A stretch of 47,545 bases of DNA from Synergistes sp. (lineage in GTDB: Bacteria; Synergistota; Synergistia; Synergistales; Synergistaceae), in contig JAFYJW010000022.1 of the NCBI GenBank assembly GCA_017537925.1, positions 1 to 47,545 on the forward strand, read 5' to 3'. The first letter of the stretch is position 1. The number at the start of each line of letters is the position of its first letter. Both the position numbers and the translations under genes were made by a program. This document shows, in pieces, positions 187 to 45,375 of the stretch. The notes under the pieces were generated by a model that saw nothing but the letters and a program-made list of their open reading frames with translations, searched no databases and was not told the DNA's origin.

Positions 187-1221
187 GTGGCATTGATTAT
201 AAAAATCAAAAAAGTATGCGCTGCTGCGGCCGTAGCTGTCTTCTGCATGCTCCCTGCGTGCGGGGGGGCTTTTGCGGCCGAAGTAAAAAACTCGCTTTCC
301 GCCGATGACATACGCTATGATACAAACACCGGGGACGCCTTTGCGAAGGGCAACGTCATCATCATCAAGGACAGGTCCGTCGTCAAAGGGGACGAAGCGG
401 ACGGCAATACCGAAAAAGAGATACTCCGCGTCCGCGGGAACGTAGACGGAAAATTCCCGGATGAAGGAATAACGCTGAAAGCCGACCGCGCTTCATGGAT
501 AGGAGAAAGCTCAAAAAAATCCGACGGCTTCTTCGAGGCGCAGGGAAGCGTTAAGCTGACGCGCGCGCCTAAAGACAGGCTCAACGCCGAATATGTGCGC
601 TGGGAGATGGGGACGAAAAACTACTGGGCCAAGGGCAATGTCGACGGGCTGCTTGACGACAGGATAATAGACTCGGATGAGTTTACGAGGATAAACGACA
701 AATTCTGGGCGCGCGGAGTGCGCCGCTATGAGGACAAAAAAGAAAAGTTCTCGCTTTCGGCAAAGACAGTCGAAGGGCGTATCGGCAGCGATCCTAAGAC
801 CGGCGAGGAAGTAATGACGGAAATGACAGCCGATAAAGACGTCGTATTCCACTACGTGGACAACGAGGGCAAGAAAACAAAAATCACAGGCAACAAGGCT
901 GTATATTCAAAAGCCCGCGGCACCGTCGTCGTGTCCGGCAACACAAAGGCGGTCCGCAGCGACGGCAAGACCGTAACGGCTGATACGATGGTCATGCATG
1001 AAGACACCAGGCTCGTAGAGGCAAAAGGCAATTCACGGATAGTATTCTATACGGAAGAAAAAGAAAAGAAGCCGCAGCCTGAAGCGGAAAAGAAGGAAGA
1101 AAAGCCCTCAAAGCCGGCCGGGAAGGAAGCCCCTCAGGAGCCGGCGCCCGAGGAGAGCCGGTTTGAGCGCCCGGATGACCAGCATATCACTGACGAAGAG
1201 GAAGAATGGGTGAATCAGTAA
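187..1221 (+). CDS. lptA: LptA/OstA-like periplasmic LPS-transport protein
   Basis: Likely periplasmic bridge protein that carries lipopolysaccharide from the inner to the outer membrane. The GTG start at 187 follows a GAGGG ribosome site. Residues 1-30 form a signal peptide with an AFA-AEV signal peptidase I-type junction. Residues 31 to about 285 are rich in short beta strands of the OstA fold (patterns such as 'AKGNV' and 'GNKAVYSKARGTVVVSGN'). The last 55 residues are a charged Glu/Lys/Pro tail. At 344 residues it is about twice the length of E. coli LptA, so it may hold a second OstA repeat or combine LptA-like and LptC-like functions. lptB begins 4 bp downstream, which supports the assignment. 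The symbol is less certain than the family. Confidence 0.75.
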   Translation: MALIIKIKKVCAAAAVAVFCMLPACGGAFAAEVKNSLSADDIRYDTNTGDAFAKGNVIIIKDRSVVKGDEADGNTEKEILRVRGNVDGKFPDEGITLKADRASWIGESSKKSDGFFEAQGSVKLTRAPKDRLNAEYVRWEMGTKNYWAKGNVDGLLDDRIIDSDEFTRINDKFWARGVRRYEDKKEKFSLSAKTVEGRIGSDPKTGEEVMTEMTADKDVVFHYVDNEGKKTKITGNKAVYSKARGTVVVSGNTKAVRSDGKTVTADTMVMHEDTRLVEAKGNSRIVFYTEEKEKKPQPEAEKKEEKPSKPAGKEAPQEPAPEESRFERPDDQHITDEEEEWVNQ

Positions 1222-1225
1222 TATC

Positions 1226-1972
1226 ATGATGCAGGCCGACAAAGAAAAAACAAATGTGCTGCGTGCGGAAAAGCTGGTAAAGTCCTTCTCGGGCCGCCGT
1301 GTTGTCGACGAAGTCAGCCTTGAGATAAAAAGCGGCGAGATATTAGGGCTGCTCGGCCCTAACGGAGCAGGAAAAAGCACTACCTTCTATATGATAGTAG
1401 GGCGCATAATGCCCGAAAGCGGCAGCGTGACGCTCGGCGGAGTCTCTCTTGCCGGGCTGCCGATGTACCGCAGGGCGAGGGCCGGCATAGGCTACCTGCC
1501 GCAGGAGCCCTCTGTATTCCGCAGCCTCACGGTGCGCCAGAACCTCGATCTCGTGCTTGAGGAGTCTGGCATGGGGCGCGACGAGCGCGGCGAAAAGATA
1601 ACATACCTGCTCAAAGAGTACGGTCTTTCACACCTTGAAGACACAAAGGCGCAGTCGCTTTCAGGAGGCGAGCGCAGGCGCGTCGAGATAGCGCGCTGCC
1701 TTGCGATCGAGCCTCTTTTTATACTTCTTGACGAGCCGTTCAGCGGCATAGACCCGATAGCTGTGGCGGATCTTCAGTCTATAATCCGCGACCTCAAAGA
1801 GCGCGGCTACGGGATACTTCTGACGGACCACAATGTCCGCGAGACCCTTACCATAACGGACAGAGCGTGCCTTATATATGAAGGCAAAGTGTTCTTGGAG
1901 GGCAAGCCTGACTATATAACCGAAAACAAGGACGCCAGAAAGTTCTACCTCGGAAAAGACTTTACCTGGTAA
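1226..1972 (+). CDS. lptB: LPS export ABC transporter ATP-binding protein LptB
   Basis: Cytoplasmic ATPase that powers extraction of LPS from the inner membrane with LptF/LptG. At 248 residues it has the full ABC ATPase set: Walker A GPNGAGKST (44-52), a Q-loop LPQEPS (91-96), signature LSGGE (145-149), Walker B FILLDE followed by PFSGIDP (165-177), and the switch histidine in TDHNVRET (H202). The 'LLDEPFSGIDPIAV' stretch is characteristic of LptB. ATG 1226 or ATG 1229 could both serve as start. It sits 4 bp after the LptA-like gene and its stop overlaps the murJ start as TAATG, so translation is probably coupled. No lptF/lptG lies nearby. Confidence 0.93.
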   Translation: MMQADKEKTNVLRAEKLVKSFSGRRVVDEVSLEIKSGEILGLLGPNGAGKSTTFYMIVGRIMPESGSVTLGGVSLAGLPMYRRARAGIGYLPQEPSVFRSLTVRQNLDLVLEESGMGRDERGEKITYLLKEYGLSHLEDTKAQSLSGGERRRVEIARCLAIEPLFILLDEPFSGIDPIAVADLQSIIRDLKERGYGILLTDHNVRETLTITDRACLIYEGKVFLEGKPDYITENKDARKFYLGKDFTW

Positions 1973-40830: not shown

Positions 40831-41658
40831 ATGTATTACTGGGACAAGGTCGACGAAGCGCAGAGATTTATAGAAAAAAGGAGCGGCGGCGTACCGATCA
40901 AAGCCGCCGTTGTGCTTGGCTCCGGGCTTGGGCGTGTCTCGGACGAGATCGAAAAAACTGAGGTAATAAAATACGAAGATATACCCTACTGGCCCAGATC
41001 TACCGCGCCGGGGCATGAAGGAAAGCTTATCATAGGCACGCTGCGCGGCGTTCCCGTCGCGGCGATGCAGGGGCGCGTGCACTATTACGAAGGCTACAGC
41101 ATGGCGGAAGTCACGTTCCCGGTGCGCGTCTTAGGGCAGCTCGGCATAAAGGCGTTCGTCGCGACGAACGCGTCAGGAGCGGTCAATCTGGACATAAAAC
41201 CCGGCTCCATGGTCGCTATAAAGGACCATATAAATTTTATGGGCGCCAACCCGCTGACAGGCGTCAACAACGACAAGTGGGGAGAGCGCTTCCCGGATAT
41301 GACTAAGGCCTACGACCACGAATTCCTTGATATCCTTGATAAGGTGGCGGAGAAGGAGGGCATAGCGGTCAGGCGCGGAGTATACATGGCCTTCAGCGGC
41401 CCGTCCTTTGAGACGCCGTCGGAGGTGCGCGTGGCCCGCATGCTGGGCGCCGACGTGGTCGGGATGTCAACGGTCCCGGAAGTGATCGCTGCAAACCATA
41501 TGGGCATACGGGTGCTCGGCATCTCCTGCGCCGCGAACTACGGCGCCGGCATAACGATGCAGAGGCTCACGCACCGTGAGGTACTTGAGGCTATGGCAAA
41601 GGCCGGCGACGATTTGTCAAGGCTCGTAAGAGGATTTATAGGGGAGGTTAAATTATGA
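40831..41658 (+). CDS. punA: Purine-nucleoside phosphorylase
   Basis: Phosphorolysis of purine (deoxy)nucleosides to base and (deoxy)ribose-1-phosphate. The 275-residue sequence is of the trimeric PNP/MTAP family: 'AAVVLGSGLGRVSDEIE', 'GRVHYYEGYSMAEVTFPVRVL', 'ATNASGAVN', 'SGPSFETPSEVRVARMLGADVVGMSTVPEVIAANHMGI', and the purine-binding Asn in 'SCAANYGAGI', which indicates specificity for 6-oxopurines. The start follows GGAGGGACG. It overlaps the pyrimidine enzyme gene by 4 bp. Use of methylthioinosine from the mtaD pathway is possible but not shown. Confidence 0.95.
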   Translation: MYYWDKVDEAQRFIEKRSGGVPIKAAVVLGSGLGRVSDEIEKTEVIKYEDIPYWPRSTAPGHEGKLIIGTLRGVPVAAMQGRVHYYEGYSMAEVTFPVRVLGQLGIKAFVATNASGAVNLDIKPGSMVAIKDHINFMGANPLTGVNNDKWGERFPDMTKAYDHEFLDILDKVAEKEGIAVRRGVYMAFSGPSFETPSEVRVARMLGADVVGMSTVPEVIAANHMGIRVLGISCAANYGAGITMQRLTHREVLEAMAKAGDDLSRLVRGFIGEVKL

Positions 41659-42962
41659 CCTTCAACATGCTGGATTTCATCGAAAAAAAACGCACAGGAA
41701 AGCCGAACACGGAAGAAGAGCTGAAGACGCTTGTAGCAAAAACCATGTCGAAAGAGCTGCCGGACTACCAGCTCGCGGCATGGCTGATGGCGGTATGCTT
41801 CAACGGCCTGAACGACGATGAGCTGATGTACTTTACACAGGCTCTTGCCGACTCGGGGGAAAGATACACGTTCCCCGCCGATATGCACATCGTCGACAAA
41901 CACAGCACCGGCGGCGTAGGCGACAAGGCCACGCTGATACTCCTGCCGCTTGCGTCATGCTGCGGCGCTTCCGTTTCAAAGCTTTCCGGCCCCGCGCTCG
42001 GCTATACTGGCGGTACTGTCGACAAATTCGAATCTATACCGGGGATGAATATGAAGCTTGATTCCGCGGAATTCCTCTCGCAGGTAAGACGGATAGGATG
42101 CGCGGTATCCGGGCATTCGAAAGAACTTGCCCCGGCGGAGGGGATATTCTACAAGCTCCGCGACGTTACCGGCACAGTGCCTTCGATACCGCTCATCACG
42201 TCGAGCATCGTCAGCAAAAAGCTTGCCGGCGGCGCGGCGTCTTACGTCTTCGATGTGAAGTGCGGGAGCGGAGCGTTTATGAAAGACAGGGTTTCCGCCG
42301 AGGCTCTTGCCCGCAGCCTTGTCGGAGTGTCAAAAAAACTCGGCAAAAACGCTGTGGCGGTGCTTACCGACATGGAGCAGCCGCTCGGTGAATGGGTAGG
42401 AAACGCGGCGGAAGTTTACGAAGCCATAGAAGTGCTGAGCGGGCGCGGCCCTGACGATACAAAGGAGCTCTGCGTCACTCTCTGCGGCCATATGCTTGCG
42501 CTCTCGGGCGCCGCCGCATCTGCAGAAGAGGGCAGGAAAAAAGCTGAGCAGGCGATCGCGGACGGTTCCGCTCTCTCAAAATTCAAAGAGATAGTAGCCT
42601 CTCAGGGAGGCGATGCCGAAGTCGTGCGCCATCCTCTCGAAATACTGCCTAAGGCGTCGAAGAAATATCAGCTTAAAGAAACAAAGGGCGGCGTGATATC
42701 AAGACTCGACGCGCTGTCCGTCGGGGAAGCGCTGCGCGCGCTCGGCGGCGGAAGGATGAAATTAGGCGACAAAATAGACTATTCCGCGGCAATACGCCTT
42801 AATAAAAAGATCGGATGCGCGGTGGATGCGGGAGAGAGCGTTATCGACGTATTCTACAACGACGGGGAGAAGCTGAAAGACGCGATCTCTCTGCTTGAGG
42901 GATGCTGGAGCACTGAAGCTTCCGCAGAAAAACGTTCTCTGATAATAGAAACTATCGCGTAA
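41655..42962 (+). CDS. deoA: Pyrimidine-nucleoside / thymidine phosphorylase
   Basis: Phosphorolyses thymidine, deoxyuridine and possibly uridine. The 435-residue protein belongs to the DeoA/Pdp group: 'FIEKKRTGKPNTEEEL', the phosphate loop 'DKHSTGGVGDKATLILLPL', the signature 'SGPALGYTGGTVDKFESIPG', and 'KKLAGGAASYVFDVKCGSGAFM'. Length and the KHSTGGVGDK loop fit bacterial Pdp as well as DeoA. It is translationally coupled to punA (ATGA overlap) and followed by a terminator, forming a nucleoside salvage pair. Confidence 0.94.
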   Translation: MTFNMLDFIEKKRTGKPNTEEELKTLVAKTMSKELPDYQLAAWLMAVCFNGLNDDELMYFTQALADSGERYTFPADMHIVDKHSTGGVGDKATLILLPLASCCGASVSKLSGPALGYTGGTVDKFESIPGMNMKLDSAEFLSQVRRIGCAVSGHSKELAPAEGIFYKLRDVTGTVPSIPLITSSIVSKKLAGGAASYVFDVKCGSGAFMKDRVSAEALARSLVGVSKKLGKNAVAVLTDMEQPLGEWVGNAAEVYEAIEVLSGRGPDDTKELCVTLCGHMLALSGAAASAEEGRKKAEQAIADGSALSKFKEIVASQGGDAEVVRHPLEILPKASKKYQLKETKGGVISRLDALSVGEALRALGGGRMKLGDKIDYSAAIRLNKKIGCAVDAGESVIDVFYNDGEKLKDAISLLEGCWSTEASAEKRSLIIETIA

Positions 42963-42973
42963 CAGGATAAAAC

Positions 42974-43023
42974 AGGCGCCGCTGCCGCTTCAGAGCAACG
43001 TCAATTGCGGCGCCTTTCGTTTT
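42974..43023 (+). terminator. Terminator after the nucleoside phosphorylases
   Basis: AGGCGCCGC (42974-42982) pairs perfectly with GCGGCGCCT (43007-43015) over a 24-nt loop, followed by TTCGTTTT. Confidence 0.8.
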
Positions 43024-43062: not shown

Positions 43063-43159
43063 GGAGGCGCTTTTCGGCCGGTGCCGGGCCCGGACTTCAA
43101 ATCCGGTGGAAGGGGTTAACGGCTTCTTCGGTGTGTTCGACCCACACACGCCTCCGCCA
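43063..43159 (+). tRNA. selC: tRNA-Sec (anticodon TCA), selenocysteine tRNA
   Basis: Reads UGA as selenocysteine with SelB. The 97-nt gene, with encoded CCA, has acceptor GGAGGCG (43063-43069) pairing with CGCCTCC (43149-43155), a discriminator G, a D arm of six pairs with a 4-nt CGGT loop, an anticodon arm CCGGA-CTTCAAA-TCCGG (TCA), a long variable arm (GAAG with CTTC) and a T arm GTGTG-TTCGACC-CACAC. The extended D stem, long variable arm and UCA anticodon are diagnostic. The eighth acceptor pair is a C-A mismatch. A possible promoter is TTGCGG (43005) - 17 bp - TATACT (43028). No selA, selB or selD is in the window. Confidence 0.95.
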
Positions 43160-43532: not shown

Positions 43533-44576
43533 TCAGACGTTTTCTTTGTATTCCATCGGTGTAAAGCGGATGCCGTCGACCGTCTGTTCGCTGCCTGTCG
43601 CCGTAAGGCCGAGTGTATCGTAAAAAGGCAGACCGTACGGAGAAGAGTTGAGCGTGATCGTCCGGCCGTGGAAGTCCTCCAGCATCCGCTTGAAGAGTTT
43701 TGTCCCAATGCCGCACCGGTGGTGCTGCCCGTCTACAAATAAGAAACAAATGTGACGCTTTTCTCTCCGGATGCCGAGCACGCCCACGATATCCTCTCCA
43801 TCGAACGCACCGTAGTAGACGATGTCCTTAAGATAGGTTTCGTCCTTCAGGCTCTTGCGGAATACCTCAGTTCCTTCCGGGGCATAGTCGGGGGATTCAT
43901 ATTCGGCGAATACCTTCCACACAAGCGCAAGCGCTGCCGGGACTTCATTTTTTGTCACTCTCCGGATCGATATGCCGTCCTGTGTCTGTCTTCCGTATGT
44001 CTTTATGAAATGCCGGCTGAACGCCTCTATCTGCTCCAGCGCCCACTCAGTTTTTCCCGGCTCACGGTCGCACATCTGAATAAGCGACGAGATCGGCGCG
44101 GTATACGCAAAGGCGAGCATTGCAGGATCACCCCGTCGGAAAAGCTTCTTGTCCGTCATGTCGGCAAATATCTGCGTGAACATCTTCGCGGGTCCGGTGA
44201 GAAAATGCTTTGCTGCCAGATCTCTCGCACGGTCATCCCGAAACTGCTCGATAGAAAGCAGTCTGCGCATCTTTACAATATTTTCGTCGCGGATCGTAAG
44301 ATCCGCCATCCGCACCGTCACCCGGACCAATTCTTCCAAAGACTCCGGAGCAGGCAGCAGACGCCCGGGGGAAGCGAAGCGTTCGTCATAACAGACCGAC
44401 ATCCTGTCCAGCAAAGCGTTCCAGATTTCCTCTTTGCCTGCATAATGTTTATAGACCGACGACTTGACAAGCCCGAGTGATTCGGTGATCTCACGGATAT
44501 TTGTGCCGGCATAGCCGTTCTCAGAGAACTTTGTGAGCGCCGTTTCCAGAATTCTTTCTTTTGTATCCTTCGCCAT
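43533..44576 (-). CDS. TetR-family regulator fused to a GNAT acetyltransferase
   Basis: A 347-residue two-domain protein. Residues 1-60 are a TetR helix-turn-helix ('RILETALTKFSENGYAGTNIREITESLGLVKSSVYKHYAGKEEIW'); 60-200 form a helical ligand/dimer domain; 204-347 form a GNAT domain with 'ISIRRVTKNEVPAALAL', 'YYGAFDGEDIVGVLGI' and an acetyl-CoA loop resembling RxxGxG/A ('HHRCGIGTKLFKRMLED'), then 'LPFYDTLGL'. AGGAG lies about 8 bases before ATG 44576. It is one of the few minus-strand genes in the window. A perfect inverted repeat overlaps its promoter, so it probably represses itself. The regulated partner genes and the acetylation substrate are unknown. Confidence 0.9.
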   Translation of the reverse strand: MAKDTKERILETALTKFSENGYAGTNIREITESLGLVKSSVYKHYAGKEEIWNALLDRMSVCYDERFASPGRLLPAPESLEELVRVTVRMADLTIRDENIVKMRRLLSIEQFRDDRARDLAAKHFLTGPAKMFTQIFADMTDKKLFRRGDPAMLAFAYTAPISSLIQMCDREPGKTEWALEQIEAFSRHFIKTYGRQTQDGISIRRVTKNEVPAALALVWKVFAEYESPDYAPEGTEVFRKSLKDETYLKDIVYYGAFDGEDIVGVLGIRREKRHICFLFVDGQHHRCGIGTKLFKRMLEDFHGRTITLNSSPYGLPFYDTLGLTATGSEQTVDGIRFTPMEYKENV

Positions 44577-44967: not shown

Positions 44968-45045
44968 CGGGATGTAGCGCAGTCTGGTTAGCGCACCTGC
45001 TTTGGGAGCAGGGGGTCGTCGGTTCGAATCCGACCATCCCGACCA
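44968..45045 (+). tRNA. tRNA-Pro (anticodon TGG)
   Basis: 78 nt with encoded CCA: acceptor CGGGATG/CATCCCG, D arm GCGC...GCGC, anticodon arm CCTGC-TTTGGGA-GCAGG (TGG), T arm GTCGG-TTCGAAT-CCGAC, discriminator A. It is followed by TTTTT. Confidence 0.97.
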
Positions 45046-45094
45046 TTTTTATGCGTTCGTTTCAACTTTGTGCCCCGGCTGTACGCCGGCTTCG

Positions 45095-45134
45095 GCAAAA
45101 GTAAATCCCCACCCCTGCGGGAATTTACTTTTGC
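45095..45134. other. Perfect 12-bp inverted repeat between tRNA-Pro and tRNA-Gln
   Basis: GCAAAAGTAAAT (45095-45106) and ATTTACTTTTGC (45123-45134) flank a 16-nt GC-rich loop. No T tract follows. It could be a processing stem, a terminator remnant or a protein-binding site. Confidence 0.75.
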
Positions 45135-45169
45135 AATTAACCCGTGACGCGCGCCCTATGCGCCGGCAG

Positions 45170-45197
45170 TTGACAATATCGCAGAATTCTATATAAT
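45170..45197 (+). promoter_or_regulatory. Promoter of tRNA-Gln and tRNA-Glu
   Basis: Perfect TTGACA (45170-45175), 16 bp, perfect TATAAT (45192-45197), 17 bp before tRNA-Gln. One of the strongest promoters in the window. Confidence 0.88.
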
Positions 45198-45214
45198 AGC
45201 CATGTTTGTTCCGT

Positions 45215-45288
45215 TGGGGTATGGTGCAACGGCAGCACGCCTGACTCTGGATCAGGTAATCGAGGTTCAAATCCTTGTACCCCAGCCA
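45215..45288 (+). tRNA. tRNA-Gln (anticodon CTG)
   Basis: 74 nt with CCA: acceptor TGGGGTA/TACCCCA, D arm GTGC...GCAC, anticodon arm CCTGA-CTCTGGA-TCAGG (CTG), T arm closing TTCAAAT, discriminator G. Confidence 0.96.
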
Positions 45289-45299
45289 TACCGAGGTAT

Positions 45300-45375
45300 G
45301 GTCCCTTCGTCTAGGGGCCCAGGACGGCGGGTTCTCAGCCCGTTAACAGGAGTTCAAATCTCCTAGGGACTACCA
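45300..45375 (+). tRNA. tRNA-Glu (anticodon CTC)
   Basis: 76 nt with CCA: acceptor GGTCCCT/AGGGACT (first pair G-U), anticodon arm GCGGG-TTCTCAG-CCCGT (CTC), T arm AGGAG-TTCAAAT-CTCCT, discriminator A. It lies 11 bp after tRNA-Gln, so both probably come from one transcript. Confidence 0.95.

Follow-up and report, generated by a model that had tools for sequence, protein, structure and literature searches.

Positions 43063–43159 on the plus strand of the window, the whole 47,545-nucleotide stretch of DNA analysed here, almost certainly hold selC, a gene that this Synergistaceae bacterium has in one copy and the tRNA product of which feeds selenocysteine (Sec) to the UGA codons of a small number of transcripts, among them the mRNAs of selD and grdA. 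The genes of the pathway and the in-frame UGA codons are present in the genome. The reactions themselves we infer from the established bacterial pathway: the selC transcript would be charged with serine by SerRS (to our knowledge, an enzyme essential in all bacteria), SelA would turn the resulting Ser-tRNA into Sec-tRNA using selenophosphate made by SelD, and SelB would then bring the Sec-tRNA to the UGA codons of the few mRNAs concerned.

The tRNA-Sec gene and its surroundings

ARAGORN, run on the window, called a tRNA-SeC with anticodon tca at 43063–43159 of the plus strand, exactly where a preliminary description of the window had placed a tRNA-Sec gene. The covariance-model check proposed in that description was passed as well: positions 43063–43155 of the plus strand matched the Rfam model RF01852 with 67.6 bits (E 9.2e-12), the gathering score of the model being 47 bits. 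Standard tRNA finders thus pick up the gene. The spurious open reading frames (ORFs) said to cover it on both strands are indeed there, but they are just 36–89 amino acids long and need no explanation.

The gene is 97 nucleotides long, and all of its elements lie on the plus strand. The UCA anticodon (43097–43099, ARAGORN position 35), the complement of UGA, the D arm of six pairs and a 4-nt loop (UUCGGC-CGGU-GCCGGG, 43073–43088) and the long variable arm (43108–43127, from the fold and the cloverleaf; stem of at least five pairs) had all been recognized at the outset and were confirmed by ARAGORN and the cloverleaf. The anticodon and T stems have five pairs each. The acceptor and T region is spaced as 8+5; seven acceptor pairs are followed by an eighth position at which C8 (43070) stands opposite A86 (43148), a combination that is neither Watson–Crick nor G–U. 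G73 (43156) and the terminal CCA (43157–43159) are both encoded. The fold had been called 'textbook'; the other stems are all intact, but the C·A at the eighth acceptor position makes that word a little too strong. Unconstrained folding of the gene gave an unexceptional z of −1.24. The evidence for selC is, therefore, the covariance model and conservation rather than folding energy, and we dropped folding energy alone as a proof because it was uninformative.

A UCA anticodon alone is no proof of Sec, and ordinary tRNA-Ser genes also match RF01852 weakly, as might be expected if the gene encoded a suppressor-type or serine-like tRNA that reads UGA as some other amino acid. We regard this as exceedingly improbable. 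In the whole genome selC is the only RF01852 match above the cut-off, its 67.6 bits comparing with about 40 bits for the weaker ones among the matches listed, and the 6/4 D arm together with G73 is typical of tRNA-Sec. In addition, the genome has a complete selABD set (see below), and TGA ends 22 of the 52 main ORFs of the window, indicating that UGA is an ordinary stop codon.

Upstream of selC lies a gene for a pyrimidine-nucleoside/thymidine phosphorylase (41655–42962, plus strand; 478.7 bits against TIGR02644, above the cut-off). This neighbour is conserved: in eight relatives, too, tRNA-Sec comes after a pyrimidine-nucleoside phosphorylase gene, and in seven of them the gap between the two genes is about 70 bases or less. 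Comparison with relatives puts the window in the Synergistaceae. Between phosphorylase and selC, at 42974–43015 of the plus strand, an inverted repeat (AGGCGCCGC/GCGGCGCCT) is followed by a T-rich stretch. Judged from its sequence, it is probably the terminator of the phosphorylase gene; a simple terminator scan missed it because of its long loop.

Several other features of the window were noted. Genes for tRNA-Pro(TGG), tRNA-Gln(CTG) and tRNA-Glu(CTC) are clustered downstream of selC at 44968–45375 of the plus strand, and in a genome of the same genus (locus L055) tRNA-Sec is likewise near tRNA-Pro, tRNA-Gln and tRNA-Glu. A 347-amino-acid ORF on the minus strand (43533–44576) combines an N-terminal TetR-type DNA-binding domain with a C-terminal GNAT acetyltransferase domain. 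At 1972–2400 of the plus strand there is an ORF that, judged by eye, is MurJ-like (lipid II flippase type); its start consists of several imperfect repeats of about 26–31 residues (SGCEAPSSREARSEETTSGGKRP...), which seems unusual for the family.

Selenocysteine machinery and selenoprotein genes

The genome from which the window comes (77 contigs totalling 1.98 Mb, with a listed completeness of 100%) contains selA, selB and selD, the three genes that the preliminary description had suggested looking for and the absence of which it would have taken as a refutation. In profile searches of the genome, selA scored 565 bits against TIGR00474 and selB 369.9 bits against TIGR00475, both above the curated cut-offs; the two genes adjoin each other on contig C30, and Pfam finds the SelA domain and SelB-specific domains in their products. 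A second SelB-like match, on contig C8, was rejected, as its translation identifies it as EF-Tu at a contig end. The third gene, selD, scored 321.2 bits against TIGR00476, above the cut-off, and has one in-frame TGA, which falls at the N-terminal Sec site (context RTSG-U-AAKI). Read through this TGA, the selD product passes the NCBIfam cut-off of TIGR00476.

An in-frame TGA was also found in grdA (902–1375, minus strand, of locus L235, contig C42:15000–30000), a gene that matches PF04723 and lies beside a thioredoxin-like gene. Its single TGA stands in the context ECPD-U-SAAGAMD, which gives a CxxU motif, and the read-through product passes the cut-off of NF040748 (glycine/sarcosine/betaine reductase selenoprotein A). 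In-frame TGA codons at known Sec sites of selD and grdA, along with the presence of selABD, support the earlier proposal that UGA is read as Sec in some genes of this organism. At least these two UGA-interrupted genes almost certainly encode selenoproteins, and annotating them as truncated would be wrong. Within the window itself we saw no gene ending in TGA that could be convincingly extended beyond it. Single-sequence folding against shuffles revealed no convincing SECIS hairpin after the UGA of either gene; the fold downstream of the grdA UGA was somewhat more stable than the shuffles (z −1.6), and that downstream of the selD UGA was not (z +0.26).

Glycine reductase and formate dehydrogenase had been offered as examples of selenoproteins to be expected here. 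The first example stands by half: the genome has selenoprotein A (grdA), but neither of two models found its partner GrdB there. Either GrdB is missing from the assembly, or the species has kept grdA without it. An orphan selenoprotein A of this kind would be unusual. The second example was rejected, as formate dehydrogenase alpha was not found in the genome by a search that did find it in control genomes.

We surveyed 53 Synergistaceae genomes with RF01852 and for the GRDB family. A tRNA-Sec above the cut-off was found in 28 of the 53, and so was a GRDB-family gene; 26 genomes had both and 23 neither. Two had tRNA-Sec without GRDB (the present genome and G018), and the two with GRDB and without tRNA-Sec are incomplete genomes. 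The co-occurrence (Fisher p 1.3e-10, uncorrected for shared ancestry) fits a Sec trait that would be kept mainly for glycine-reductase-type reductases. One genome of the same genus as the present one, G049 (89% complete, 280 contigs), has selA and no tRNA-Sec above the cut-off; the missing tRNA-Sec is probably an assembly gap.

Synergistetes have been reported to be rich in selenoproteins, with Sec used by 13 of 14 organisms (PMC5029168), and a 2026 review repeats this status for Synergistota (PMC13188914). As the phylum is already known to use Sec, the identification of selC is correct but ordinary, and beyond the annotation of the interrupted genes it adds little.

The eighth acceptor pair

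In E. coli the eighth pair, C7–G66, is one of three that act as determinants for SelB and antideterminants for EF-Tu (PMC9976931). We compared this position across bacteria. Among Synergistota (loci L014–L154) it was non-canonical, mostly A·A, in 98 of 101 distinct tRNA-Sec sequences. In controls from Alphaproteobacteria plasmids and viral contigs (E. coli-like and other sequences) it was paired wherever the gene was complete. These paired, proteobacterial-type controls suggested an acceptor mismatch specific to Synergistota, an idea given up on a wider sample: outside the phylum the pair was non-canonical, mostly G·A and G·G, in 23 of 49 tRNA-Sec sequences, a sample biased to high model scores. 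We therefore claim only that such pairs are enriched in Synergistota, not that they are peculiar to them, and for the same reason strict 8+5 pairing is an unsafe criterion for tRNA-Sec. A limited literature search, with partial coverage, returned no published description of the non-canonical eighth pair.

These counts bear on whether selC could be a decayed, non-functional gene of a lineage on its way to losing selenocysteine. The C·A at the eighth acceptor position might be taken for a sign of such decay, as might the lack of a GRDB match here against three copies (PF07355) in a same-genus genome; the 67.6 bits of selC are below the scores of most relatives, and several Synergistaceae are wholly without tRNA-Sec. 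However, a non-canonical eighth pair is the rule in Synergistota and common outside them, so the C·A is not decay, and every other stem of selC is intact. Moreover, selA, selB, selD and grdA are all open frames except for the expected UGA. We thus consider decay highly improbable and retain the reading of selC as a working tRNA-Sec gene.

Judging by the tRNA-Sec sequences compared, the E. coli-derived definition of an '8 base-pair acceptor stem' would not apply strictly in all bacteria. If the non-canonical position is functional, many bacteria might keep Sec-tRNA off EF-Tu by an unpaired or purine–purine step instead of an eighth pair, a proposal that we put forward tentatively and think rather unlikely to be right.

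Comparison with known tRNA-Sec systems

The tRNA encoded at 43063–43159 resembles bacterial tRNA-Sec (selC; RF01852) in its UCA anticodon, its D arm with a 6-pair stem and 4-nt loop, its long variable arm and G73, as well as in its length of 97 nucleotides and the 8+5 spacing of its acceptor and T region. It differs in the first pair of the T stem, which is G–C and not G·U, and in the eighth acceptor pair, which is C·A where E. coli has C7–G66. With other Synergistota tRNA-Sec it shares the overall shape, the site downstream of the phosphorylase gene (as in the eight relatives) and a non-canonical eighth pair, although here this is C·A and not the commonest A·A, and the sequence of the variable arm differs. 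A bacterial tRNA-Sec with 12 bp (7/5), in which seven residues separate the T stem from G73, has been described with Secmarker (PMC5330540). The present tRNA likewise has just 12 canonical acceptor and T pairs; unlike the 7/5 form, however, it retains all eight residues on both sides of the acceptor stem, and it is the pairing alone that fails.
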